A DNA stretch of 64,000 nt, taken from Sinohyriopsis cumingii (lineage: Eukaryota > Mollusca > Bivalvia > Unionida > Unionidae). The notes under the pieces were generated by a model. The model did no database searches. It worked only from the letters and a program-made list of their open reading frames with translations, and was not told the origin of the DNA. Shown one piece after another: positions 4,301 to 64,000 of the stretch. The translations under genes were made by a program, and so were the position numbers. Every line of letters starts with the position of its first letter. Within the stretch, counting starts at the first letter, position 1. The stretch spans positions 496,001-560,000 of the forward strand of contig JAPYKE020000267.1 of the NCBI GenBank assembly GCA_028554795.2. The letters are read 5' to 3'.

Positions 4301-7300
4301 ACTTAACAATTATAAATCGAATATGATTTCAGTGTACTAGAACTGAAGAAATACGAAGGATATGTGTGTTGTTGGACTGCTAAGATATTATATTTGGCTG
4401 TAGATTGCAGATAGGTAATCTGGACAAATAGCTCATTGCGAATGTCTTTATTTCAATCCTGGCAAAACTTCAGTACTACCATACAACGAAGCATTGCATG
4501 TGATGCAATGTAGAATATAGTATATCACGTAGATAACGCGCACATAATTATCAAAATTACTTTCATTTATGCAAGGACCTGCATGCTTATGAAATCTGTG
4601 TTTGCATTATCCTTTTTGAGTCCCGTTAGACTCCAGCTTGTTTTTATAGGCTTATACGTACAGTATTGTCTACTGTGATCGTCAAATGTTTATAAAAATA
4701 ATTGTAAAATTAATATGTTTATATTCGATATATCATATTCACTGTGTTATCTATTGTACTCTACATGATTAAAACTTTTTGGCTTAACATATATTGTGTG
4801 TATTTTTACATAACATTCAGAGTTATAATATGATACTTTACAGTGTGCAAGCTTTAAACGGTATTGTGTTTTATGTTGACGTATTAATGCAATTGATATA
4901 AATTGAACATCTAGTGGAATAATAACTCACTTTTCTAATAATCAGTCCAAAAAAGGCTCAGCTGCCTAAATGTTCAATCATTTTAGTTTGATTTTACATT
5001 ACATGCTTGATTCCAAATATCTAAACTATTAAAATAAAATTTGTCTTCAAATTAATCGGGCTGATAAACATGATCTACAAATAGGTTAATGTGATCACCT
5101 GAAAATGTAACGTATTAATTTAAGATTTAAGCTGCATTAGAGTAGGCGACAATGCTTTCCCATTAATTGATGCGATAATGAAAAACTATGTAATGTTGTG
5201 TTTGACTAGATGTCATGGTTTCAAAACATAGTATTGTATCCTCGTTCACGTAAAGCAGCTTTTATTTGCAGAGTCTGAAATGTAGATAAAGCAAGAAATG
5301 TGTTGCTTAATGATATATAGGAGTCATCTCAAAATCGTTCAGTGTACGTTTTTCACTTGTCTTTAACTCAAAGAATGCCCATTTAATCTCCTGGGGGATA
5401 AGAGCTGGAATATTGTAACCACCAAACTAAAATTACCAGCCGGCATATAACGTTTGAAATCTATTCTTACTTGTGCAAAGGTTGTATTATCCAACTATAG
5501 TAGTTCAAAATAACTGCTTGTCTTGTGGTAATGCAAAGCTATTTATCTTTGGTTCGGAAATAATCGAAAGTGCTTCCCTCTGCGAAAATAACTTGTATAT
5601 CACTTAGTAACATTTTATTATTCTTTATAAACATGAATTATATAAAATGTAAAATAATATGAATTAGTTTGTAACTTTTTTGTCACACTCCTGTTAATAT
5701 AAATGTAATTTAAAAGTATGTTCACATGAATAGTTTATTCGTACCAAAATTGTTGTCATATTGAAATTAATAGAAAGTTATTTTATAAAAGAAGACTTGA
5801 TAAATATTATCGTGTCCACATTGTCATCCATTCTATGCAGTTTAAAAATAAATTGGATTTGCTTTACACAAAGAAAACTGATGCAAATTCACCGAAAAAG
5901 GTGACTAAGGTGCTACATTGGTAAATAACAAAACATGTTGAAAAATCTTCTCAATGTTGTGTCACCGAAGTAATGCGATGTGACACACAGTCTCTCACTA
6001 AAAAGATTAACGCACATAACAATATCTTAACCTTTAAAAACATAGCTTTTAGTTTCATGCGCACTGATTATACGCATTTCCTCACTTAAACAACATTCCC
6101 GCTAGATGATTGTTTCTGTAAACACCAAAACCAATGTAATCAACAGTATTACACAGGGAAAAAAGACTAGAATTTAGCAAATGACATAAAAATCAACACG
6201 CTTAACATCTATAAAGCCTTAGTCTTTAAAGCACAATTACATCACTATACATTAGACGTGTACAACTAATCAAAGACCTGGTTCACCCTCTATTGCATTG
6301 TACAAAACATCCACCTTTAAATGTCGCATTTCCCGTACATCACTGACGCTATGTTTCTTGTAGTAAAAACAATCTGTGGTGATGAAAACCATGGTATATT
6401 ATTACCGCTATTATCCTACCGAAATTAGTTTCAAACCAAACGTTATACAAAAAACTTTTCAACAAAAACATTACTAACATTGAAACTGCATAGGCCTTCC
6501 TTAACAGAGATGAAGGCTCCTGTACAGATAATACGCTTTCTCACATCTATACCAAAGCTAAATTTATTTCGCAATACGCAGCGTTATGCAATATGAAACA
6601 CTAATCCTATCGCCAGCAGCGAATACCATTAATCATCAATAAGAGCGGTAATATGGATTTCGTTTCATACATATATGATATTTATATATTTGGTATTAAT
6701 GGGACTGTGTTCTCTGGCTTAAGGTGCAATTCTCTTTGGAAATATCTTCTTGAATGACCTATTTAAAAGAAAGCATTGATAAAGGGTATCATAACATACG
6801 TAAAGTAAATTCTGATTTTTAAGTATTTATTTATATATTTGCAAGAGTTTGGAGGTTATTTTTCATTATAGTGAGAAAGTGAGGGGAGTTTATTTGTCAA
6901 ACGGAGTACATAGGCAATTAATATAAACATTTGGTATAATGTACAATATATACGAAACGTGATAGCATAATTTACTAGTTTCTTAAAATTTGCACTTCTT
7001 AACATTCTAACGTAGGAAGTCATCGGAATAGGTTCACGCTTGTGTTGGGTTCTTAGGTCGTATTTTAATGTGCATGGGATGAAATACCAATCCACTGCTT
7101 GGAACGGCAAGAGGCAAGAACTTAAACGAAATATTTTGAAAGTAGAAATTATTCTGAATGTCTGTTCATTAATTGCTCAGATAAAACGTATGCGTAGTAT
7201 TCGCTTGTTTAATACATTTTCAGTTGATATGGATTGCTGTTTTGAGTTAAAAGATAAAGTAAAATAATGCGAGCGGTCACAAGCAAGACGTGCTGTTATT

Positions 7301-19206: not shown

Positions 19207-21190
19207 ATGATACACATTCGAATGCCTGAGTTAATTATCGGTACCAAATATATTAAGCTACGCAAAGCGTAGCTTGAAATATCAGTGTTTACTCTTAAAT
19301 AGGTTGCGCGAGCAAGGAGAGAAGTGTTCTCCTTTGTAGTTATTATATAGTATATGTATCACAAGTCAAGGGTAAGCAACGATGCGAGCCCCTGTGTTTT
19401 GAATCAGTAAAGTTTTCATCAAAGTCCTTATTAACTATTTATATGAGGCAAACCAAATTCTGCACCAAACAGTCAGCTGCTAAACATGTGTTGGTAATGT
19501 GACAGACAGTGGACACCTACATCAGTAACACTGTTCAGAATACTGTAATGAAACCTCAAGTTCCATGAGGAGCTGCTGTAACCGATTTTCTTAGGCTGTT
19601 CTTGCTTATTGTGAATACCTTTATAATACATTTCATAGCTGGGTCAGTATATTTTACATTTGTATTAAGCAATACAATCCACGTATACATATATATAAAG
19701 AGACAGAGATTCAGGAAAAAAGAGACAGGACAGAGACAGAAATATGCAAATAGTCGTGCTGATAATCTTTGTTCGAATTTTTAACATTTGTATGCGGGAA
19801 ATGCCTCCCTTCGCATTGTTCGAAAGCTAAATCATAGAAATAAAAAAAAAATCGAATGATTGCTATGAAATATGAATGGTAGCCGTGAAAATATACATAC
19901 CAACACCGGACTATTCAATGCTTTTAATTACATTTTGTTTGTGTCATCATGGTCGTGATTATGTGTGCTATTATTACAATAAGATGCATAATATAGTCTA
20001 TCACGCATATAGGCAATTTTATTTCAAATGAAGCAACCATATGTTCGAAACTTAATGTTCTAAGTGTTTTACTACTTATATAAAATATGTGTGCAAGCCA
20101 ATTTTGTTCTGATATAAGATAATGTATAAAGTATTGATAATATATGCATATATGATCTGTTGCAAGCATTTATGTGCTGTTACTATTATTAAAGTTGAAA
20201 TGAACTTCCAACACATCACCTCTTTCTCAAAAAGTTCTCTTATTTCTGTCTTTGTCAGCAGCAAATTATAAATAAATTACATACATTAGCTAAATGGAAT
20301 ATAATGTACTTCTGAATTAATTTCTCCCAAACGACAGTGACTGTTTGCATTTCTGGAGATTTGGATGACAAAAGTGCATGTTCATACATATAAGTATCAT
20401 TCGGCGTATATGCCTAGTGAAGTATATCCAGCTTTATGCCAGTTATTTTTAATACACGCATGTGCAAATTTGTTGCTTTAATAATTTTTGTGCAAAAATT
20501 TCGGGTACCTTCAGTACGACCAAAAATACAATAGCAGGCACAATCAACACATGCACGTAAAAGTATACAAAACATCGCAGACTGTGCTTATTCTACCCGG
20601 ATAACACCGTTTAACGAATTGTCTAATATATTCAGTAAAGACTATTAGTGAATAGTCCCCCCCCTCTCTCTCTCAGTTTGCACCGAAATAAAAAAAAACA
20701 TCCAATTCTAAAATCGCAAATACGACTGGGGTAGGCAGGACGGGCCATCTTCGAAATATATAACCTAAAATCATATGCAACAAAGGAAATATACCTGTAA
20801 TCCGTAAGTTCGCGGATCGCGATAAGAGAATACAATATGTCCAGGGCTATTCAGAGATCATTTGAAGCCTTCGGAGATCTTACACGGTCTTGAAAATTTG
20901 CAAATGGAGAGATATGCTTCGTGTGCAAGCAGAGCTGCACGATGATGAACTGAACGTGGTATCAAACATGGTAAAAACCAAAACACGTCGTTAGGTTCAT
21001 CAGTCTACCCATATTCCCATATCGTTTAGTTTCAACAAGCCATGATAATCCGGTGACAATAAGTGTTACGAAAGTGATGCATTGCAAATCTAATGTATGA
21101 ACAACCCTAATACCACGTTGATAATCATTACGCTGGCAATGCCTTGAATGTTCCTTGTCAATTGATCGCCAACAAGCATTTTGCGGCATT
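19207..21190. other. no gene seen
   Basis: AT-rich DNA with a short CT-rich patch near 20658-20676. No exon-like or transposon-like open frame was recognised. Confidence 0.5.
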
Positions 21191-21199
21191 TTCATTATT

Positions 21200-22292
21200 T
21201 GTTAATGACTATGGTATCTTTGACAGAGTGTGGCACGAGGCATTGTGGGTCACAGTGAAGTATAACATGGGTCAAAAGTTAACCAATACCATCAAGCAAC
21301 TGTACGCCAAGGCTACCAGTGCAGTAATTGCCCAAGGTGCTGTGGGGGAACCAGTCCCCCACAGTCCAGTCAACAGTGGGAGTGCGTTTAGGCTGTCTCC
21401 TGTCGCCCACGCTTTTCAAAATCTACTTAGAGCGCATCATGAGCGAAGGCCTGGAAAACCACTGTGGGACAGTCAGCATTGGAGGGCGTAACATCACCAA
21501 CCTCCGCTTTGCAGACGACATTGATGGGCTGGCAGGCATTGAAGACGAGCTAGCCTCCTTAGCGAAGAACCTGGATGAAACATCTTCCAGATTTGACATG
21601 GAGATAAGCACAGAGAAGACAAAACTGATGACAAATAGTGGCAAACAGATCTCAGCCAAGATTAAAGTCAGAGGACATGAACTGGAAACAGTGAGCCAGT
21701 TCAAATATCTTGGTTCCATAATCACTGAAGAGGGATCAAGAGCAGAAATTTTGTCAAGAGCAGCACAAACAATGGCAGCTATATCAAAGATAAGACCCGT
21801 CTGGAGAGACAAGAATATCTGTCTGAAAACAAAAATCAGACTATTGCGAGCTCTAGTCATCTCAGTCTTTTTGTACTCATGTGAGGCATGTATCTGACAG
21901 CAGAATTACAACGAAGAATCCAGTCACTTGAAATGAGATGCTGCAGAACCATCCTTGGCATCTCTTACATGGACCACATCACAAATGAAGAAGTGCGTAA
22001 CACCATCAGGCGCGAAGTAGGCCAATATGAGGACCTCCTCACCACCATCAAAAAGACAAAGCTGAAATGGTATGGCCATGTCACTAGATCCAACAGTCTA
22101 TCCACAACAGTCCTGAAGGGCAGCGTCCAGGGTGGCAGAAGGAGAGGTAGACAGATAAAAAAGTGGACTGAAAACATCACAAAATGGACCAGGAAAAGTT
22201 TTGCGGAGACACAGGCATTGGCACAAGAAACTCAACAAGTGGAGGGAACTGGTCAGATGTTCAGCAGCACAGTGCTTCAACGACCACACTAG
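21200..22292 (+). pseudogene. reverse transcriptase fragment, two frameshifts
   Basis: The coding remnant spans three open segments. The first (to about 21345) holds FVNDYGIFDRVWHEALW, corresponding to RT motif A with its catalytic Asp. The second (about 21350-21893) holds GVRLGCLLSPTLFKIYL (motif B region), NLRFADDIDGLAG (the FADD form of the catalytic box) and FKYLGSIITEEGS (the later conserved YLG block). The third (about 21888-22292) holds LQRRIQSLEMRCCRTILG and WYGHVTRS, the usual C-terminal region. Frameshifts lie between 21340 and 21380 and near 21893, where CEA should continue into a W-T-L-T-like sequence. The catalytic aspartates remain but the frame does not, so it is not functional. 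Confidence 0.9.
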
Positions 22293-23686: not shown

Positions 23687-25377
23687 CTACATCTTAGATT
23701 TCTTCGCCTGTCTCTTGTACAGCTGTTCGGGAGCATCTCTGAGGAGTGTCCAGCAGTAGTCAGCCAGCATTGTAGTGGACCATTTTCCCTGGTATCTTTG
23801 TTCCATTGTTGCGATATCTTGATGAAAACGTTCGCCGTGTTCATCACTAACAATACCACAGTTGCTAGGAAAGAAATCCAAATGGGAATGAAGGAAGTGA
23901 ATCTTTAGAGACATATTGCAGCCAAGTTTCTTATACTTCATCAACATGTCTTCTACTAGTTCCTTATAGTTTTCTGCCCTAACATTTCCGAGGAAGTTTG
24001 TAGAAACTAGGCGAAAAGCATTCCATGCTTGTTTCGCGTCACCTTCCAGCAAGTTGTTGAACCGGTCATCTTTGAAAAGCTCTCGAATCTGAGGACCCAC
24101 AAAAACTCCCTCTTTAATCTTTGCTTCGCTGAGTCGAGGGAATTTTTCATGCAGGTATCGGAATGCTGGCAAAGTCCGGTCAATGGCTTTCACGAAGTTC
24201 TTCATTAAACCTAGTTTGATGTGAAGGGGTGGTAGCAAGATTTTCTGAGCCTCAACCAGAGCTGGGTGTTGGATATTCTTCTCTCCAATGGCTACATTCT
24301 GCCTGTGAGTCCATTCCTTCCTCATGTAGTGCATTTCCCTTGCTCGGCTATCCCACTCGCATAAGAAACACATGTATTTTGTATATCCTTGCTGCAGTCC
24401 CATTAAAAGGGCAACTACCTTCAAATCACCACAGAGGTGCCAGCTGTACTTGTTATACTCAATGGAATTCAGTAGCTGCCTTAAGTTATCGTATGTCTCT
24501 TTCATGTGGACAGCATACGCTACTGGAATAGATGGAAGAATGTTTCCATTGTGCAAAAGCACAGCCTTGAGACTCAGTTTCGAAGAGTCCACAAATAGTC
24601 TCCATTCTTGTGGGTCATGAGTGATTTTTAAAGCATTCATGAGGCCCTCAATATCGGAACAGAATATCAGGTTACTTTCCTTTCTGAAGAAAGGCTCCAA
24701 TTGCTGGTGGCGCTTTCGATATGCAGTAATTGTGACATCTTCTTCTAGAAGATTCCATTGTTGGAGTCTTGATCCTAGCAATTCTGCCTTGTTCTTTGAT
24801 AAGTCCAAATCACGAATCAGGTCATTTAGTTCTTCCTGTGTTATTCTGTGTGGGGTTGATGATGCACCACAGTGAAAATCTGGATCACTGCATGCTGATG
24901 GACCAGGAGAAGAACAGGTCGACTCACCTTTGTCTTCGTCAGATGAATCAAGAGAATATTCTGCTGGAGGTTCTGGAATAGGAAGTCCCTCACCATGTGG
25001 AACTGGTCTCAATGCAGACGGAATGTTTGGGTAGACTATTCTCGACTTCTTTCGCTTTGTTATTCCGCCGGAAAGAGGAGGAACCAAGCAGAAGTAACAG
25101 TCATTTAGGTGGTTGCTTGGCTCTCTCCACACCATTGGGACTGCAAACGGCATTGATGACCTTTTGCAATTCAACCACTGTGAAAGCTGTGTTGTACATG
25201 TAGCACAGCATATATATGCGGAGCCCAAGGCTTGTCTTGGTCACCAACCTTGCATCCGAAGTAAAGATGATATGCCTTCTTCACTTGAGAATTGATACTT
25301 TTCTTCTGGTTGGCAAATGTCACTTCCCCACAAATATAGCAAAAATTGTCCGCGGTATTAACACACTTTCGAGGCAT
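23687..25377 (-). pseudogene. CMC-like transposase, single 2-bp frameshift
   Basis: The protein starts at 25377 (MPRKCVNTADNFCYICGEV) and ends with TAG at 23687-23689, about 562 residues if the frame is continuous. The first 55 residues have Cys-rich, zinc-binding-like spacing (C-x7-C-x2-C, then YFGC and a CC-x2-C after the break). At about 25208-25216 the run CATATATATGC carries one extra AT relative to the expected frame, so the upstream reading ends 13 codons later. The downstream 513-codon frame (from 25228) is intact. Residue numbers below refer to that frame: D214 (LFVDSSKL), D268 (HLCGDLKVV), C287 and C290 (CFLC), H336 (PPLHIKLG) and E466 (HGERFHQD). D, D-C2C, H and E in this order match the CMC transposase pattern. 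An acidic, Ser-rich linker lies at about 92-120. The frame is otherwise undamaged, so loss is recent or is an assembly or read error in a dinucleotide run. Confidence 0.85.
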
Positions 25378-52700: not shown

Positions 52701-54451
52701 GTAAGACAAATCAGCCTTTTTAATCTGACAATTCTTTCAACATATTTAGTATACTAATATACTTTTTTGTACCATTTATTCTCAAAGTACAAAATGTATC
52801 TCAGTCAAACTTTATACATTTTCTCCCAAATACATTACTAACGCTTCCTGATAGTACTGATAGAGTAAAATATCATGAGTTTTTATTCCTGTGCTAGTTT
52901 TCTTCACTTATTGTACTCAAGTATCAAAATGGACAGAGAAGATAAAACTCCAATAGTTTAGTGTGTGACGAGTCAAGGCAGAATCGTATCACGCAGCATA
53001 TATTCAAAATGATACAGCATTTAAGTAGCCTCGCATATTTAATAATTCAAAGAAAACCAAGTTGTATTTAAACACATTATATGCTTCATTGACACAAGCA
53101 TGGTACCAATGGTATATAATGAAACATTGTAAGACGGTAAGTATTGATATATGATCCAGGAAGTTGGACATGCGTTTTACATCGTCAAATAGGCGTCTGC
53201 ACACCATGGTTACTTTATTCTAGATTTCGAAATAATATTATCAACGAATTGTCGTATGGGTATCATTCTCATACAATAGTACAGGTTCAGAGCACAATCA
53301 AATATGTAAATAATTGTTTACAAATATCTGAGGTAAAAGGGATTAAAAAAATTATATCCGTGTTGTTTGGGACCAGGTAGCCAACATCGTATAACCAAAA
53401 CAGCGGAAAATTCTCGTTTTGAATAGTGTTCATTAAATATGTTAGACCAAGTAATCATCCATAATGAGAATATCTGGAAACGTTATCTATAACAATTTAA
53501 ACCAGATGACGATTTTAGCACTTGCAAGCATGTGTATCCTTTACACAATACGGACGAAGTTTAAATTATCCTCAAACGTAGGAGGAACGCACATTATATA
53601 TATACACAAAGTAATGACAAAAATTTGTTTTCCTTTGCCAGATTAGCCAAATCTTCAACAAAATTCATTGATTCCATTTCTAGTAATTTGCATTATAATA
53701 TTGTATTGAGAGCTACATTAATTTATTTTATACATAGTTTATAGTTGTACAATTGCTGTAATTGTTTTAATTATTTCAACATCGCTGAAATACAATGTTA
53801 GCATAATGCAACAAGGATATACAGTACACAAAGATTTTCATCATGAAATCAGAGACTTACCAAGATACTGATATATTACGTGCGCCATATACAATATGCA
53901 AACTCGCCAATTTTAAAATATAATATGATTAATATTGTTTTCATGAACTACTTTGATTCTGAGCGATTCATAAACAAATACCTTACATTAGTACTGTCTT
54001 GAGATCGTCACAGCTGTTTTACGAACCGTGTGAGATATTTGTTACTGCATTGACATGTGTACTTTAATATTTGCATTTTTGCTAATGCAGGGATGTTGCA
54101 CGATTGAAGCATTGTATTCCACTTGTTTATGTCTGAACTTAAGATGTGATAATGTTGGCGTTTTCGTTTTCTAGTCTGACATGTGGCATGTCTAATGCAA
54201 TTTGTCAATACGATAGTGATTTGTAAAATCGTTTTTCTAGATTTCAAACATAATTAACATTTCACATAAGCTGTGGATTCCTCAATTAATACTGATAACG
54301 AAAGTGTCGCTGTGTGAGGAAAACATTAGTTCACATAAATCATCTTTATTTCCTGAATGCATAATGTGACCATTCTCCTGATTGTCTAGTCATGCATATG
54401 TTGCCGTCGTGTCTAAGTAATGTATGTCATAATTGTATCTTTTCATCGTAG

Positions 54452-54595
54452 ATGACACGTGACTTACTTTCCGTCTCTATCGTCATCTTTGTCATCCTAA
54501 TGCCATTGGTTATGTGTGGCATCATAAAGAGTGACCGAAATCGCCTGGAAGAGAAGATAGAGGAAATGGACCAACTTATGAAGATAATGACTGGG
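54452..54595 (+). CDS. exon 1: start codon, signal peptide/anchor, half A module
   Basis: The ATG follows an AG acceptor (54450-54451); the preceding in-frame triplet is TAG, so this is the first usable start. The 48 codons begin MTRD, then a hydrophobic stretch of about 21 residues ([10 protein letters not shown]...LVMCGII), then [18 protein letters not shown]. The last part matches the A-module core ([13 protein letters not shown]). The downstream intron also resembles the introns that follow A exons. The exon ends in phase 0 before GTATTA. The hydrophobic part could be a cleaved signal peptide or an uncleaved signal anchor. Confidence 0.75.
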
Positions 54596-55352
54596 GTATT
54601 AACATGACACATGAACTTCTCATTATCTTCAATCATCCAGATCACATTTAGTTGAACGTATTATATCGTCGCTTTGTACAATGCTCGTCTTATGACAACA
54701 TGTATAATTTCAGAAATATTGAACATCACTAAATGGTTATACTACGTTATTACATGGCACACGAAAATACACATCATGCTCGTGATTATAAAGAGTATCA
54801 TCAGCATTAATAACAACTATACAAGGTTGTGTCTTTGTTAATCGTGTTTCTCTTGCTCTCTGGAATCACACTCTGTAGTATCAGTAGTAATAATTGTTTA
54901 TGCTGTTGCTGCTGTTGAAAATATGTATATTCCGTAAGATTAGGAAACTTTGTTTATCGTTTCAATGTTATTAGGCTGCCATTCTACTGTAAATTACAGG
55001 ATGTTGACAACGCTGAAATTGCACTTGAAAGGAACATAGTAGCTGCAAAGAAATCCGCGGACAAGTGTAAGATTATATATAATATAATATTCCGCATATT
55101 TCCTGCGATATCATTCATAGAGTATATACATGAACTACCAGCTTTCATGTTACTACTCTTATTTGACACTGCTAAATACAAACGGCACGTGCAACACGTA
55201 TGAAAAGTGCACGATGCATATATATCGATATATAAACCGGCTCATGTTGAGGCAATTATATATCTGCTTAACATGATGTTTCCCATTATATTATCACAAT
55301 TGTTACCACACTCAGACTGAAAATGGCGATAGTTTAGAAGACAATTACTTAC

Positions 55353-55383
<31 letters not shown>

Positions 55384-58260
55384 CATACATACATACATAC
55401 ATACATACATACATACATGCAAAAATACATATAAAGAATGTATTTATTCCGTGTCATTTTGTCCTTTATTTTACTTTGATATTGATCTTTTTTCTAATTT
55501 ACAAATGCACATGGATGAGAATGATATATCCATAGCTGTGCTGTCTATTGATTTTCATAAATGATAAAGGGTAGAAGAGACAATGATAATTTTAGAGGTC
55601 CATGTTTTAGGATTTGTTTGCCATGCTGCAAAATAATATGACTTTAAGGGTGTTACCTCCTTATATATGAATACGATTTACTTCTCTAGCAGATGCAGCT
55701 GTGAAAAGAGGACTTGGTGAAACAGTTGCCCAAAATGACGTAATAAACAAGATAGACGAGATGAACCAACTCATGAAGGAAGTGATTGAGGTATAAAAAG
55801 CACACATTCACATTTTATTATCCTCAATCATCAAAATCATAATTGGTTGAAAACATTGTTTCATCATATTTATACTATGTTTGTGCCATGACAAGATGCA
55901 GAATTTTATTAGTATTGAACTTGAAGCAATAGTTATACTGCGTCATCACAAGGCGCACCAGAATAAACACCATCGATTTTTTTAATAAACAGTAAAATTA
56001 GCATCAACAACAGCTGAAGAACATTAAATCATTGTTACTCTATCTTAGACATGCCATCTGGAGTCAACATCAGTCGTAGCAGTAGTAATTATTGTTTTTG
56101 ACTGACTGCTGTAGTTGAAAATATTTAAATTTGTACAGTTTTAGAATATGTATTTATCCTTGCATTGCTATTAAGCTGCCATTCTACTGTAAATTACAGG
56201 AAGTTCCCATTGCCAGAAATGAACGTGAAAGAAATGTAGCACTTGCAAAGAGGTCTGCCGAAGATGGTAAGCTTATATGCTACTATACTATACTGCTTGT
56301 ATCCTAGGCTACCTGTTATAGTGTATGTACATAAACTACCATTATTCAAGTTGCTGGTCAGTTTGACCTTGCTGGATCAAAATAGCATGCGCAACATATA
56401 TGAAAAGAACGTGATACATATAATGATATATATGTCAGCTCTTGTTCAACCTACTTGGTTCAATGACAGGTCATAAGTTTTAAGCTCATTTCATATATAT
56501 GTAATATGTGTACAATAAATGTCACTTGAAGCTAGTCAACAACTTTGAAGATGAAATCCAGCCTTATGGTAAGGAGACGTGCATTTCACCCAAGTTAGTA
56601 ATACTCGTTATAACATTTATTTATAACTTTTCATTATCTTCGTTTCTTTTAGTCATTTTAGGTATATAGCTTGATTGCTAAAAAAAAATGTTATACTTAA
56701 GAGCATTGAAAATACCAGTTAGTTGTATTTATATTCTCGTATTTCTCTGTTGACCATATTGATCGACAGTATGTCCTCAGATTACGTGTTATGATCTTTT
56801 TGTTTTGTTTTTCTCTTTCGTTGGTTATTTTGTCGGAGATGGTAGACATGCTCATCAAGCTTCTCTCTTTTGAAATAATTACATTTATTTTGTTTTATAA
56901 AGCAGTTGTATTCATATTTAAATCAAAATATATTTTGTTCGCTTCAATTTGAAATCATTTAGATTATCCAATCGTGTACCTAGCTCGAGTTCTAATTGGT
57001 TTACCCACATATCTGCACCTTACAACAACGGTACATCATCTTTGATTGAATTCAATAAATCTAAGGTGTAATCCTGTTTTTGATTTCATCTTGAATTCGC
57101 ATTGAAATGTTGAAGATGAATGGTAACGATGACTTATTTTTATTGCATTTGTAATTTTTCGTTTTTCTGTTGTTTTGATAATGCCAGTCAGTTTTTACAA
57201 CACACTTGAGATTCTGCAAAGAATTTATTTCATCCAATGATTGTTTAATATCTCGTAAATAATATTTGCCTATTTGGTTATACTTAGACTTACATTATCT
57301 GCGGAAAAGGTCAAACATTTGAAAACCATCCTTTCCTGGTGATTTTTTCACAGGTTAATTCAAAGAACAACCATCTATGAAAAATGTCAGAAATATGAAA
57401 TGAAACATGGATTATCAATGAGCCGACATCTTTGCTGGACAACACTTTAGATTTAATCACCTTAACACAGACAGTGAATGTACAATTTTTGACTTTAATA
57501 TCACGCTGCATTTTTCTTTGCTTGATAATTGTTCAATGACTTGTTCCTAGCTTTGTCCCCTTAATCAAAGGGAATGTAAATTGTTTTTACGTACTAGCTT
57601 TATGTGCAATGTAGACTTTGATGCATAAATCTGCTGTCTAAACAACCTGCAATCTGAATAGCTTTCTAAAATATATAGGACTTCATTAGAGGTCAGAAAG
57701 ATTCATCATCTTTAGGAAACTGTAATACATTTGAACTTAAAATGTTAACTAAATGGATCAGAAGAGCCCAATGAAGAATTTAGTATGCCCCAATGTCCAA
57801 AGTTCACACGCTCTTTTTTTATGCGTGAAGGTAATTTTTGACACCAAACGTCGCTCACAGTACAAATGCCTATATTTATCCACGTGATAAGCTTGCCAGA
57901 TACAATACAAGACAGAAATGCATTGACATCCCCAACATTTTCTCAGATCTAGTAAAATATACTCATATATGATGCTTTGAACTTACTCAAATATTTACCA
58001 GCGCAAGACGCCAATTTCATACTCTACACCCAATATGTAGTTTAGAAAGTTTGCTTTGGCACATACATACAAAGGGAGGTAATCAAAACAGGCTAATACA
58101 TAATAGCTAATTCGATACAAAACCAAATATAATATACTACCATAATGGGTTGACTGTACTAATAAATAAATGGTAATTGTTTCTTTAAAGGGCGAAATGT
58201 ATAGATTTGATGAACAATTCTGATTAAGCTGTCTCATACATACATATATACATACATACA

Positions 58261-58293
<33 letters not shown>

Positions 58294-58420
58294 GCATACA
58301 TACATACATACATACATACATACAAACATACATACATACATACATGCATACATACATATATACATACATATATACAGACAGACATGCGTGGATACATATA
58401 TACATACATACACACATACA

Positions 58421-58454
<34 letters not shown>

Positions 58455-59721
58455 CAGACAGACAGACAGACATTCATACATACATACATACATACATACA
58501 TACATACATACATACATACATACATACATAAATACATGCATACATACATACATAAATACATGCATACTTACATAAATACAGACATACATGCATACATACA
58601 AAGAGTGTATTTTTCCGTTTCATTTTGTACTTTTTTATTTTGAAAATTATCTTGTCTTTAATTTTTAAATGCATTTGGATGAGAATGACAGGTCCGTAGA
58701 TGTGATGTTTATTGATTTTATGCAATGATAAAAAGTAGAAGAGACTCTGACAATTTGAGACATATATGTTTTATGATTTATTTACCATGCAGTTAAATAA
58801 TATGTATGTAAGAGTGTTTTTACTTATACATCTATAGTGCATCTTTCTCTTGCATATGCAGCTGTGAAAAGAGGACTAGGTGAAACAGTTGCCCACAATG
58901 ACGTAGAACACAAGTTAGACGAGATGAACCAACTCATGAAGGAAGTGATTGAGGTATACAAATCACATTCACTTTAGATCATCCTCAATAATCACGATCA
59001 CAAGTGGTTGAACGCCTTGTTTCGTTCTTTATACAATGTTTGAGCCATGAAACCATGTAGAATTTCAAAAATAGTGAACACCAAGAAGTGTTGATACTGC
59101 GTCATCACAAGGCACAGCAGATTATACACCATCGATTTGACCATAAACTGTAACATTAGCAAAAATCAACAGCTATAGTACATATACATAATTGTTACTT
59201 TCTCTTAGAAGTGCAATATTTATTATACACCAGCAGTAGCAGTAGTAATTATTGTTTTCGTCTGGTTGCTGTAGTTGAAAATTCTTAAATTTATGAAGTT
59301 TAACAAGATATGTTTCTCTTTGGGTTGTTATTAAACTGCCACTCAACTGTAAATTACAGGAAGTCCCATATGCACAAAAAAGAAACATACAAGCTGAACA
59401 GAAGTTTGCCGAAGAGTGTAAGATTATTTATTTATATTATAATATGCCGCATATTTCCAATGATAAAATTCATGATGCATATACATGTAATACTATCTTT
59501 CCTGTTGCTGATCTGTTTTTCGTTGATGAATATAAACAACATGCTCAAAAAATAAGATAATAACGTGATATTTAAATGTCGTCCATATTTTCGCTATTTT
59601 AAATAATACATACATCAATGCACCATACATGCATACATGCATTCCTTAGTATCTGATTAAGTACTACCGTCATGGATTCAAGCAAGAACATGTGCCCGTT
59701 AGTGTGTGCGTGCGTTTATGA

Positions 59722-59812
<91 letters not shown>

Positions 59813-62538
59813 CATATATACATTCGTCTTTCTATTCAGGGTAACTTCCATGCAGGAATTCATAAACGTATGCTTACATACATGCATGCGCACATACACA
59901 CATTCTTACACAGTGTATGCATGAACACATGAATACATACATGCATACATACCCACATACCATCATTGATACATACATACATACATACATGCAAAAATAC
60001 ATATAAAGAATGCATTTCTTCCATGTCATTTTGTCCTTTGTTTTATTTTGATATTTATATTTTTTCTAATTTACAAATACACATGGATGAGAATAATATG
60101 TCCGTAGCTGTTCTGTGTATTGATTTTCGTAAGATAATGAAGGGTAGAAGAGACTATGATAATTTTAGAGGTCTATGTTTTAGGATTTGTTTGCCAGGCT
60201 GCAAAATAATATGACTTTAAGGGTGTTTTCTCCTTATATATCAATACGATTTCTTTCTCTTGCAGATGCAGCTATGAAAAGAGGACTAGGTGAAACAGGT
60301 GCCCACAATGACGTAGAACACAAAATAGACGAGATGAACCAACTCATGAAGGAAGTGATTGTGGTATTAAAATCACACATGCACATTCGATTATCCTCAG
60401 ACATCACAATCATAATTGGTTGAACGCATTGTTTCATCATAATTATACTATGTTTGAGCTATGAAAAGTTGTAGAATTTTATAAGTATTGAACTTGAAGA
60501 AATAGCTATACTGCGTCATCACAAGGCGCACCAGAATAAACACCATCGAAATTATCATAAACAGTAACATAAGCATCAACAACAGCTGTAGAGCATTGAA
60601 TTATTGCTACTCTGTCTTAGAGATGATATCTGGAGTCAACATCAGTCGTAGCAGTAGTAATTATTGTTTTTCACTGGTTGCTGTAGTTGAAAATATTTAA
60701 ATTAGTACAATTTTAGAATATATATTTATCCTTGCATTGTTATTAAGCTGCCATTCTACTGTAAATTACAGGAGGTTCCCTTTGCCAGAAATGAACCTGA
60801 AATAAAAATAGCTCTTGCAAAGAGGTCTGTCGAAGAGGGTAAGCTTATATGTACTATTATATACTGCTTGTATCCTAGGCTACCTGTTATGGTGTATGTA
60901 AATAAACTACCATTATTCAAGTTGCTGGTCAGTTTGACCTTGCTGGATCAAAACGGCATGCGCAACATATATGAAAAGAACGTGATACATATACTGACAT
61001 ATATTTCAGCTCTTGCTGAACATATGGTATGTCTACCGAAAATGATGTTTTCTGATATATTATCGTTGTTGTGAAGTCAGTTATATTACAAATGGTGATA
61101 GCGTAGACAGTTATATGTATAAATACAACCATACATACATAGATACATAGATACAGACATACATACATACATACATACATACATACATACATACATACAT
61201 ACATACATACGTACATACATACATACATGCATACATATATGCATACATACATACATATATACATACATACAGACATACATACATACATAAAAATATATAT
61301 ACATACATGTATTTTTTCCGTTTTGTTTTGTCCTTTTTTATTTTGATATGTATCTTGTCTTTAATTTTTAAATGCGTTTGGATGAGAATGACAGATCCAA
61401 TGATTTTTTTCACTGATGAGAGGTAGAGCTGACTCTGACAATTTGAGAGATATATGTTTTAGGATTTATTTGCCATGCAGTTTAATACTATTTCTTTAAG
61501 AGTGTTTTTACTTATATATCAATAGTACTTCTTTCTCTTGCATATGCAGCTGTGAAAAGAGGACTTGGTGAAACAGTTGCCCACAATGACGTAGAACACA
61601 AGATAGACGAGATGAACCAACTCATGAAGGAAGTGATTGAGGTATAAAAATCACACATTCACTTTTGATTATCCTCAATCATCACGATCACAAGTGGTTG
61701 AACGCCTTGTTTTGTTCTTTATACAATGTTTGAGCCATGAAACCATGTAGAATTTCAAAAATAGTGAACACCAAGAAGTGTTGATACTGCGTCATCACAA
61801 GGCACAGCGGATTATATACCATCGATTTGACCATAAACTGTAACATTAGCAAAAATTAACAGCTATAGTACATATACATAATAGTTACTTTCTCTTAGAA
61901 GTGCAATATTTACTATACACCAGTAGTAGCAGTAGTAATTATTGTTTTCGTCTGGTTGCTGTAGTTGAAAATTCTTAAATTTATAAAGTTTAAGAAAATA
62001 TATTTCTCTTTGGGTTGTTATTAAACTGCCATTCAACTGTACATTACAGGAAGTCCCATATGCACAAGAAAGAAACATACAAGCTGAACAGAGATTTGCC
62101 GAAGAGAGTAAGATTATTTATATAAATTATAATATTCCGCATATTTCCAATGATACAATTCATGATGCATATACATGTAATACTATGTTTCCTGTTGCTG
62201 ATCTGTTTTACGTTGATGAATGTAAACAACATGCTCAACAAATAAGATAATAACGTACTGCTTTTAACGAAATATCGGACTACTCATGATGAACATATGA
62301 TAATTATGCAGAAAATAATATTATCCAATTTAATATCGTAATTGTTGATTCACAGAGATTAAAAATAGCGACAATATAGACGACATTAACCATATTTAAA
62401 TGTCGTCCATATTTTAGCTATTTTAAATACATACATACATCAATGCACCATACATGCATGCATGCATTCCTAAGAATCTGATTAAATACTACCGTCATGG
62501 ATTCAAGCAAGAACATATGCCCGTTAGAGTGTGCGTGC

Positions 62539-62581
<43 letters not shown>

Positions 62582-63607
62582 AATACATACATACATTCGT
62601 CTTTCCATTCAAGGTAACTTCCATGCAGGCATTCATAAATGTATGCTTACATACATGCATGCGCAAATACACACATTCTTACACAATGTATGCATGAACA
62701 CAAGAATACATAATTGCATACATACCCACATACGCTCATTCATATATACATACATACATGCAAAAATACATAAAAAGAATGTATTTCTTCCGTGTCATTT
62801 TGTCCTTTGTTTTATTTTGATATTTATCTTTTTTCTAATTTACAAATACACATGGATGAGAATAATATGTCCGTAGCTGTTCTGTGTATTGATTTTCGTA
62901 AGATAATGAAGGGTAGAAGAGACTATGATACTTTTAGAGGTCTATGTTTTAGGATTTGTTTGCCAGGCTGCAAAAAGATATGACTTTAAGGGTGTTTTCT
63001 CCTTATATATCAATACGATTTCTTTCTCTTGCAGATGCAGCTGTGAAAAGAGGACTAGGTGAAATAATTGCCCACAATGACGTAGAACACAAAATAGACG
63101 AGATGAACCAACTCATGAAGGAAGTGATTGTGGTATTAAAATCACACATGCACATTTGATTATCCTCAGACATCACAATCATAATTAGTTGAACGCATTG
63201 TTTCATCATCTTTATACTATGTTTGAGCCATGAAAAGATGTAGAATTTTATAAGTATTGAGCTTAAAGAAATAGTTATACTGCGTCATCACAAGGCAGAC
63301 CAGAATAAACACTATGGAAATTATCATAAACAGTAACATAAGCATCAACAACAGCTGTAGAGCATTGAATTATTGTTATTCTGTATTAGACATGATATCT
63401 GGAGTCAACATCAGTCGTAGCAGTAGTAATTATTGTTTTTGACTGGCTGCTGTAGTTGAAAATATTTAAATTTGTACAGTTTTAGAATATGTATTTATCC
63501 ATGCATTGTTCTTAAGCTGCCATTCTTCTGTAAATTACAGGAAGTTCCCTTTGCCAGAAGTGAACCTGAAATAAAAATAGCTCTTGCAAAGAGGTCTGTC
63601 GAAGAGG
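54452..63607 (+). CDS. multi-exon gene of alternating A/B coiled-coil cassettes, 3' end outside window
   Basis: Twelve coding exons were identified: a first exon with a membrane or signal segment, then alternating B and A exons. Entries for each follow. Each junction is GT-AG. A exons leave in phase 0 after VIE or VIV; B exons enter in phase 0 and leave in phase 1. An A+B pair is 150, 156, 159 or 165 nt, always a multiple of three, so pairs can be gained, lost or skipped without a frameshift. The A core reads [20 protein letters not shown] then NQLMKEVIE, with hydrophobic residues at 4-3 spacing (V, I, M, M, V), which suggests a coiled coil. B exons are charged and helical in composition (E-V-P then ARNE...ALAKRS.EE). 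With its N-terminal hydrophobic segment the product is probably a secreted or type II membrane protein with a repetitive rod. I recognise no family. Frame conservation and splice sites are seen; expression and function are unknown. Confidence 0.8.
55000..55066 (+). CDS. exon 2: B cassette, divergent
   Basis: The acceptor AAATTACAG is the one used by all later B exons. The 67 nt encode [20 protein letters not shown] and DK plus one base, ending before GTAAGA. It is the most diverged B copy, lacking the EVP start of the others. Confidence 0.75.
55346..55418 (+). repeat. (CATA)n in intron 2
   Basis: About 70 bp of ACAT/CATA tetranucleotide lie upstream of the first complete A exon. A conserved block follows (GGATGAGAATGA ... 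TTTTAGGATTTGTTTGCCA, about 55510-55626) that precedes every A exon. Confidence 0.95.
55693..55790 (+). CDS. exon 3: A cassette
   Basis: The acceptor is CTCTAGCAG; a second AG six bases downstream would start the exon at 55699. The 98-nt form with the base carried over encodes [20 protein letters not shown] then [13 protein letters not shown]. The donor is GTATAA. AQNDVIN differs from the AHNDVEH of later copies. Confidence 0.85.
56200..56266 (+). CDS. exon 4: B cassette
   Basis: The acceptor is AAATTACAG. The 67 nt encode [20 protein letters not shown] and ED plus a base, then donor GTAAGC. It belongs to the long B type (22 codons plus one base). Confidence 0.85.
56267..58235 (+). other. intron 4, no module copy found
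   Basis: This is the longest intron found in the array region (2.6 kb including the CATA tract). It holds mostly unique AT-rich sequence, with no A or B copy and no other recognisable feature. It separates the first A/B pair from the densely duplicated part of the locus. Confidence 0.6.
58236..58599 (+). repeat. (CATA)n microsatellite, large
   Basis: About 360 bp of CATA tetranucleotide with CAGA, TATA, CATG and TAAA variant units. Long open frames on both strands are translations of the repeat. It precedes the conserved block (58600-58790) and the A exon at 58862. Confidence 0.97.
58862..58953 (+). CDS. exon 5: A cassette, type 2
   Basis: The upstream AG seen in other copies is changed (TTGCATATGCAG), so only the downstream acceptor (58860-58861) works. 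The 92 nt encode [20 protein letters not shown] then [11 protein letters not shown] with the carried G. The donor is GTATAC. Confidence 0.85.
59360..59417 (+). CDS. exon 6: B cassette, short type
   Basis: The acceptor is AAATTACAG. The 58 nt encode [19 protein letters not shown] plus one base, then donor GTAAGA. It is three codons shorter than the long B type but keeps the same phases, so the 9-nt difference is in frame. Confidence 0.85.
59724..59820 (+). repeat. (AT)n microsatellite in intron 6
   Basis: About 95 bp of TA dinucleotide. The flanking sequence TCATGGATTCAAGCAAGAAC (59672) recurs before the shorter tract at 62541-62577, so both lie at the same point of the duplicated unit. Confidence 0.95.
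60266..60363 (+). CDS. exon 7: A cassette, type 1
   Basis: A strong acceptor, TTTCTTTCTCTTGCAG, precedes it, with a second AG six bases on. The 98 nt with the carried T encode [20 protein letters not shown] then [13 protein letters not shown]. The donor is GTATTA. Confidence 0.85.
60772..60838 (+). CDS. exon 8: B cassette, long type
   Basis: The acceptor is AAATTACAG. The 67 nt encode [20 protein letters not shown] and EE plus one base, then donor GTAAGC. Confidence 0.85.
61131..61310 (+). repeat. (CATA)n microsatellite in intron 8
   Basis: About 160 bp of CATA tetranucleotide with variants. Its left flank (ACAGTTATATGTATAAATAC) recurs at about 63876, before the tract that begins at 63897. 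Confidence 0.97.
61550..61641 (+). CDS. exon 9: A cassette, type 2
   Basis: The single usable acceptor is CATATGCAG, as in the exon at 58862. The 92 nt encode [20 protein letters not shown] then [11 protein letters not shown]. The donor is GTATAA. Confidence 0.85.
62050..62107 (+). CDS. exon 10: B cassette, short type
   Basis: The acceptor is ACATTACAG. The 58 nt encode [19 protein letters not shown] plus one base, then GTAAGA. It differs from the 59360 copy at K/E and K/R. Confidence 0.85.
62541..62577 (+). repeat. (AT)n microsatellite in intron 10
   Basis: About 36 bp of TA dinucleotide at the position matching the longer tract at 59724-59820. Tract length therefore differs between duplicate units. 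Confidence 0.95.
63035..63132 (+). CDS. exon 11: A cassette, type 1
   Basis: The acceptor is TTTCTTTCTCTTGCAG. The 98 nt with the carried A encode [20 protein letters not shown] then [13 protein letters not shown]. The donor is GTATTA. It follows a short B exon ending in A, so the junction residue is Asn or, with the downstream acceptor, Thr. Confidence 0.85.
63541..63607 (+). CDS. exon 12: B cassette, long type
   Basis: The acceptor is AAATTACAG. The 67 nt encode [20 protein letters not shown] and EE plus one base, then GTAAGC. This is the last cassette inside the window. The phase-1 end requires a further A exon beyond the right edge. Confidence 0.85.
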
Positions 63608-63896
63608 GTAAGCTTATATATACTATAATATACTGCTTGTATCTAGGCTACCTGTTATGGTGTATGTAAATAAACTATCATTATTCAAGTTGCTGGTCAG
63701 TTTGACCTTGCTGGATCAAAACGGCATGCGCAACATGTATGAAAAGAACGTGATACATATACTGACATATATTTCAGCTCTTGCTGAACATATGGTATGT
63801 CTACCGAAAATGATGTTTTCTGATATATTATCGTTGTTGTGAAGTCAGTTATATTACAAATGGTGATAACGTAGACAGTTATATGTATAAATACTA

Positions 63897-64000
63897 CCAT
63901 ACATACATAGATACATAGATACAGACATACATACATACATACATACATACATACATACATACATACATACATACATGCATACATACATGCATACATACAT
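63897..64000 (+). repeat. (CATA)n microsatellite, cut by window edge
   Basis: CATA tetranucleotide runs to the last base. By analogy with 61131-61310 it should be followed by a conserved block and another type 2 A exon. Confidence 0.95.

Follow-up and report, generated by a model that had tools for sequence, protein, structure and literature searches.

The window, i.e. the whole 64,000-nucleotide stretch that was analysed (C267:496001-560000, in an assembly of 2.90 Gb), carries close to its right-hand end a repetitive plus-strand gene that continues past the window end. The sequence was read from 54000 to 64000 and scanned for repeats over 53500-64000, and the DNA past the window (L008) was also read; coordinates above 64000 continue the window numbering into L008. 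The gene consists of 15 exons in the order E1, A1, B1, A2, B2, A3, B3, A4, B4, A5, B5, A6, B6, A7 and T. Note that our A corresponds to the B cassette of an earlier, sequence-only reading of this DNA, and our B to its A cassette.

54452..54595, + strand: E1, first coding exon, signal-like segment and E1 helix, 48 residues; 25 other E1-like places
55000..55066, + strand: A1, 67 nt, phase 0 in, 1 out
55699..55790 (alternative start 55693), + strand: B1, putative hybrid exon, 92 nt, phase 1 in, 0 out
56200..56266, + strand: A2, 67 nt, ALAKRS flavour
58862..58953, + strand: B2, putative hybrid exon, even flavour, acceptor CATATGCAG
59360..59417, + strand: A3, 58 nt, EVPYAQ flavour
60272..60363 (alternative start 60266), + strand: B3, putative hybrid exon, odd flavour
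60772..60838, + strand: A4, 67 nt
61550..61641, + strand: B4, putative hybrid exon, even flavour
62050..62107, + strand: A5, 58 nt
63041..63132 (alternative start 63035), + strand: B5, putative hybrid exon, odd flavour
63541..63607, + strand: A6, 67 nt, last exon inside the window
64358-64449 (L008:358-449), + strand: B6, past the window end
64859-64916 (L008:859-916), + strand: A7, past the window end
65983-66035 (L008:1983-2035), + strand: T, terminal exon, past the window end

The sequence-only reading had placed 12 exons at 54452-63607. All of them are present with AG/GT borders and a continuous frame, and every one is real; the list was three exons short (B6, A7 and T) because the window ends. 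The strict alternation of two cassettes, with the phases proposed at that time, extends over all exons between E1 and T. The A exons (67 or 58 nt) are entered in phase 0 and left in phase 1, and the B exons (92 nt, or 98 nt via an acceptor 6 nt upstream in B1, B3 and B5) are entered in phase 1 and left in phase 0, so the length of an A-B pair is always divisible by three (150, 156, 159 or 165 nt). Pairwise alternative inclusion of the cassettes, as once suggested, would thus be allowed by phase. The donor of B6 (gtttaa) looks weak by eye. Three features go beyond what had been noticed before: the cassettes come in two alternating flavours that form a higher-order unit of four exons and about 2.7 kb, the gene has small three-exon relatives, and B resembles a fusion of a last and a first exon. 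The joined product has 396 residues (402 with the upstream acceptor in B1, B3 and B5), its repeats are distributed over 13 internal exons, and its C-terminal end reads ...KKGLEKEGKWWLG. TTTTCATCGTAG, at times with one base changed, abuts the ATG in 19 of 20 loci, which suggests that a non-coding exon precedes E1. Scans of the window against Rfam at gathering scores and for tRNAs gave no match.

When same-length intron pieces from the region were joined at random, none of 5000 joins was open (mean 24.3 stops, minimum 8). This test is to be leaned on less, because the copies are related to each other and the joined exons are likewise free of stops in one antisense frame. Exon conservation, together with recurrence in paralogues, provides the better evidence. 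Odd and even B exons are 94.7% identical (9 pairs), with 76.9% identity in the 300 nt downstream and 76.3% in the 200 nt upstream; E1 and A are found in paralogous genes too, in the same order and with the same splice sites. Among the E1 exons of four relatives (6 pairs), five pairs are 87-90% identical in the exon and 74-88% at the start of intron 1, and the sixth, a pair of close relatives, is 96% identical in both. The pN/pS ratio is 0.83 for the 15 B pairs (16.0 synonymous and 56.0 non-synonymous differences); for the relatives' E1 remainder it is 0.92, so neither value demonstrates purifying selection at the codon level. For the A exons the ratio, which rests on few differences, is 1.19 in the 22-residue group and 0.25 in the 19-residue group.

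A search of the genome with the E1 peptide returned at least 27 places: 12 on C10, 8 on C14, 6 on C267 (the window gene included) and one more on C14 at chance level (E 8.5). This leaves at least 26 E1-like places, all in these three contigs. On C14 two of them are weak matches (E 0.0011 and 0.033), one of which is broken, so the number 26 counts E1-like places and not working genes. An open E1 with the start ATGACACGTGAC is present in 19 of the 20 retrieved loci, and in 18 loci besides the window gene an A exon follows E1; the exception is L036, where the A-like stretch is divergent. The coding part of the relatives read comprises three exons, i.e. E1 with the signal-like segment, A, and the terminal exon T, and covers about 2-3 kb where all three were seen. 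With the T region as query, at least 21 places were found (16 on C10, 4 on C267, 1 on C14), and the distance from E1 to T is about 2-3 kb in copies on C10, on C267 and in one on C14; as C14 has a single T match, no T was seen for most of its copies. Nine T exons were read, seven in fetched short stretches and two on L008. They carry KWWLG, KWWFG (2), KWCCW (3), KWCCIW and SGIW, and one is a degenerate copy. A composite query of the whole small protein matched at least 49 places, again all in C10, C14 and C267.

The 12 E1 copies of C10 lie on one strand at 115.98-116.95 Mb, 73-107 kb apart, and their surroundings are 97.8% identical on average (66 pairs, 90.3-99.7%). The series is either a young tandem amplification of a large unit or an effect of the assembly. 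Four plus-strand T-like places on C10 (C10:116062454 and three alike), about 2.2 kb from the minus-strand T of a copy, are nearer the window T (84-85%) than that minus-strand T is (71%); no plus-strand E1 on C10 is among the E1 search matches listed. In L058 (C10:116156305-116157378) the early part of intron 1 repeats with a period of 309 bases. In the region C14:47970500-48010400, parts of the window (about 1-6 kb and, inverted, 10-19 kb) recur at 66-90% identity, with halves of E1 about 19 kb apart; the region appears to be an old segmental duplication of the window gene's cluster. About 5 kb past the last exon of the window gene, at L008 ~5540-7000 (C267:565540-567100), there is a degenerate A-like stretch with a copy of T that is 90% identical to the real T and has a broken frame.

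The family, unrecognised from the start, has stayed so in the Pfam-A and PDB searches. Four proteins gave nothing above the Pfam-A cut-off (best DUF5658, 22.2 bits vs 25.2), and the PDB matches are at chance level, one for a C10 relative (E 0.64) and two, both chemotaxis receptor rods, for the window product (E 0.096 and 0.12). No printed description of the family or the gene is among the matches listed from the open-licence literature. The cuttlefish sex-pheromone precursors show no resemblance by eye in the available part of PMC3484142. We would thus be dealing with an unnamed family of putative secreted peptides that is strongly amplified, with at least 12 E1 copies on one contig.

The origin of the B exons can be read from their two sides. 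Every one of the six B exons was taken together with 400 nt of flanking DNA up- and downstream and searched at E 1e-3 against two T regions and five E1 regions. In all six, similarity to the E1 of four relatives sets in at about exon base 17-29 and extends into the beginning of intron 1 (E 5e-34 to 3e-49); with the E1 of the window gene itself it sets in at base 45-51 (E 4e-35 to 1e-61). On the other side, two blocks of the intron that precedes B, both no more than 250 nt away from the exon, resemble the intron that precedes T (the best block with E 2e-13 to 8e-19). The T-like start of B itself comprises about 22 aligned bases, ATGCAGCTGTGAAAAGAGGACT aligned with TCGCAGCAGTCAAGAAAGGATT; the BLAST match to T enters the exon only for B6, so that for the other five the likeness is made up of these ~22 aligned bases and the intron. 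No B region matches, at E 1e-3, the DNA that follows T or the DNA that precedes the 3' part of E1; the leftover matches are between the DNA before B and positions ~840-960 of the E1 rows, with TA repeats in L035, L031 and partly L020. Full-length matches to B were found in this gene only (6 places). B thus looks like T in front and E1 behind, i.e. like a hybrid of a last and a first exon. Since T is entered in phase 1 and E1 is left in phase 0, the phases of B are explained as well. The repeated unit corresponds to a whole single gene, and each junction to the end of one gene joined to the start of the next.

The explanation that we favour, and hold to be probable, is that about seven copies of a small unionid secreted-peptide gene were fused head to tail, and that the fused gene encodes a precursor which is secreted and most likely cleaved at KR. 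The anatomy of the gene and its homology to the small genes are observed; the deletion or crossover, and its direction, belong to the interpretation. The starting point would be a single gene whose E1, coding for the signal-like segment and an amphipathic helix, is left in phase 0, whose A is entered in phase 0 and left in phase 1, and whose T, the terminal exon, is entered in phase 1. In a tandem pair of such genes, a deletion or an unequal crossover would have placed the 3' part of the next gene's E1 directly behind the 5' part of T, removing the stop, the intergenic space and the signal segment, so that inner starts and stops were lost. The resulting exon would have taken its acceptor and phase 1 from T and its donor and phase 0 from E1, and with these phases it fits between two A exons. 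Duplications of whole blocks would later have lengthened the array.

The relationships among the copies are compatible with such a course. The tree of B ends with their downstream introns is ((B1,(B3,B5)),(B6,(B2,B4))) and that of the A exons with flanks is ((A2,(A4,A6)),(A7,(A3,A5))); the inner branches are well supported (8 of 8 for B, 4 of 4 for A), and the B copies form one clade against the five E1 rows (99/97). The blocks B2-A3-B3-A4 and B4-A5-B5-A6 are 95.2% identical over 1921 aligned bases. The simplest reading would be one fusion, followed by the separation of the odd and even flavours, and lastly the duplication of B2-A3-B3-A4 to give B4-A5-B5-A6. The suggestion that the array is suited to changes in length is supported by this recent change in copy number, seen in two neighbouring blocks, and we predict that the number of repeats varies between individuals.

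The fate of the product is a separate question. The N-terminal hydrophobic segment of 23 residues is signal-like by eye, in line with the earlier idea of a cassette gene behind a signal or membrane segment, and cysteine is absent beyond residue 23. GLG opens every repeat and VP lies in its middle. KR is found in all six B exons, as opposed to KK in eight of the nine T exons (a set that includes near-identical copies and one degenerate one). AKRS is present in A2, A4 and A6 (3 of 3) and absent from A5 and A7 (KK) and from A3 (QKRN), so that cutting would yield unequal peptides. A repeated peptide bordered by dibasic pairs, as in prohormones, is what we find; if the fusion is accepted, we consider it somewhat more likely than not that the product is a precursor from which several copies of one peptide are cut. 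Cutting at KR would release six related peptides of about 33-50 residues, beginning with GLGE and with a helix starting K(I/L), and a short tail, GLEKEGKWWL, that is possibly amidated.

The alternative that survives best, although we consider it rather unlikely, is that the gene is fused as described and its product is left uncut, i.e. that it is a secreted, mostly helical repeat protein (of structural, mucus, matrix or egg-capsule type) whose length is tuned by the number of repeats. This comes close to the coiled-coil-like rod that had been proposed earlier. The strongest hydrophobic period is indeed 3.5 residues (calculated without a shuffle control), three of the five helix segments are amphipathic beyond shuffles (rank 0.012 or less), the moment of the E1/B helix being 0.50 vs 0.21 for shuffles (rank 0.005), and the PDB matches, weak and at chance level as they are, are to helical chemoreceptor rods. 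However, two of the five segments are not amphipathic beyond shuffles (0.205 and 0.116), there is no cysteine beyond the signal-like segment, and GLG and VP interrupt every repeat, which makes a single long coiled coil unlikely and a continuous rod doubtful. Charged helices might by themselves account for the dibasic pairs, but KR in every B exon as against KK in most T exons leads us to prefer a cut precursor over an uncut rod.

It is improbable, in our judgement, that the fusion is decaying, i.e. that the concatemer is no longer transcribed or is degenerating. The degenerate A-like stretch and T copy just downstream, the broken places on C14 and the high pN/pS ratios would fit such a view, but all 15 exons are open with AG/GT borders in spite of 23-24% intron divergence between the flavours, and the B exons have stayed nearly alike across them. 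Least probable is an ordinary duplication of internal exon pairs in an old multi-exon gene, with the small genes as shortened derivatives: the phases would permit it, block duplication clearly happened later and the single-to-fused direction is our interpretation of this one genome, but it leaves unexplained why B matches a first exon and its intron on one side and the intron of a last exon on the other, and full-length matches to B were found only in this gene, the relatives read being of the short form.

Returning to the fused and cut precursor, a wider reading, which we offer tentatively, is that the gene belongs to a so far undescribed family of secreted unionid peptides, where fusion of a last with a first exon created a phase-compatible internal exon and thereby a polyprotein gene, in which KR was gained and the number of whole blocks varies between individuals.

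It is useful to compare this gene with known systems of fused or repeated genes. Firstly, a two-domain globin of the bivalve Barbatia was reportedly treated by Naito in 1991, as cited by a later paper. In the parts of PMC4732748 and PMC4503718 at hand, the two-domain globin of Barbatia reeveana is likewise a case of single bivalve genes fused head to tail, for which unequal crossing over is inferred. Its two domains are joined at a bridge intron that has been likened to the pre-coding intron (PMC4732748, PMC4503718), whereas here the joint lies inside an exon made of a last and a first exon, and there are about seven units. Secondly, the mCRP-I genes of the bivalve Mytilus are clustered and code for small secreted precursors that contain dibasic sites and, in some cases, several repeats, as far as the available sections of PMC10138031 go. 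Their repeats lie in one terminal exon, in contrast to the 13 internal exons found here; the authors held exon duplication to be implausible, and the six-cysteine knottin array C-C-CC-C-C of Mytilus CRP-I (PMC10138031, same sections) is absent from our product. Thirdly, the bivalent ICK toxins of spiders also come from three-exon precursor genes, some with repeated units, but the repeat arose inside exon 3, the peptides are cysteine knots, and the excerpts of PMC13172734 describe no hybrid exon. Finally, schistosome micro-exon genes such as MEG-26 resemble the present gene in being secreted, in having an amphipathic helix and in exon repeats that arose by internal duplication; from their description in the portions of PMC5825161 at hand they are set apart by having most of their coding part in symmetric exons of 6-36 bp, as opposed to asymmetric exons of 58-98 nt here. 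Among the literature matches listed (open-licence papers, available in part), none has a joint inside an exon made of a last and a first exon. The gene would thus be a multi-exon repeat protein built from small tandem genes, in a genome that has retained relatives of the parent gene. The hybrid exon would be the joint, and with one phase inherited from each parent it would allow read-through however many units there are.

A few other features of the assembly and the window can be mentioned. There are three COX1 matches of two kinds, C807 (two copies 15,961 bases apart) and C1106, which are 69.5% identical in protein over 446 residues; the order cox2, cox1, cox3, atp6 was read from the translation of L075. 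The first COX1 protein, this gene order and the size of the genome agree with Unionida, which points to a unionid freshwater mussel as the probable source. An octopus or another cephalopod, suggested at first by base composition and repeats, was given up as host in view of COX1; a loose reflectin-like query gave no match, and neither did molluscan haemocyanin PF14830, the controls of which were silent as well. Two divergent mitochondrial types are an outcome of doubly uniparental inheritance, and the two COX1 types would be as in such a system; alternatively, the second type may come from a contaminant. Within the window, worn LINE reading frames are found at 21111-22292 (+ strand), with an RVT_1 match (E 1.2e-12) in 21328-21897. 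An open frame of 517 codons at 23687-25240 (- strand), without a Pfam match at E 0.001, is by its look presumably derived from a transposon.
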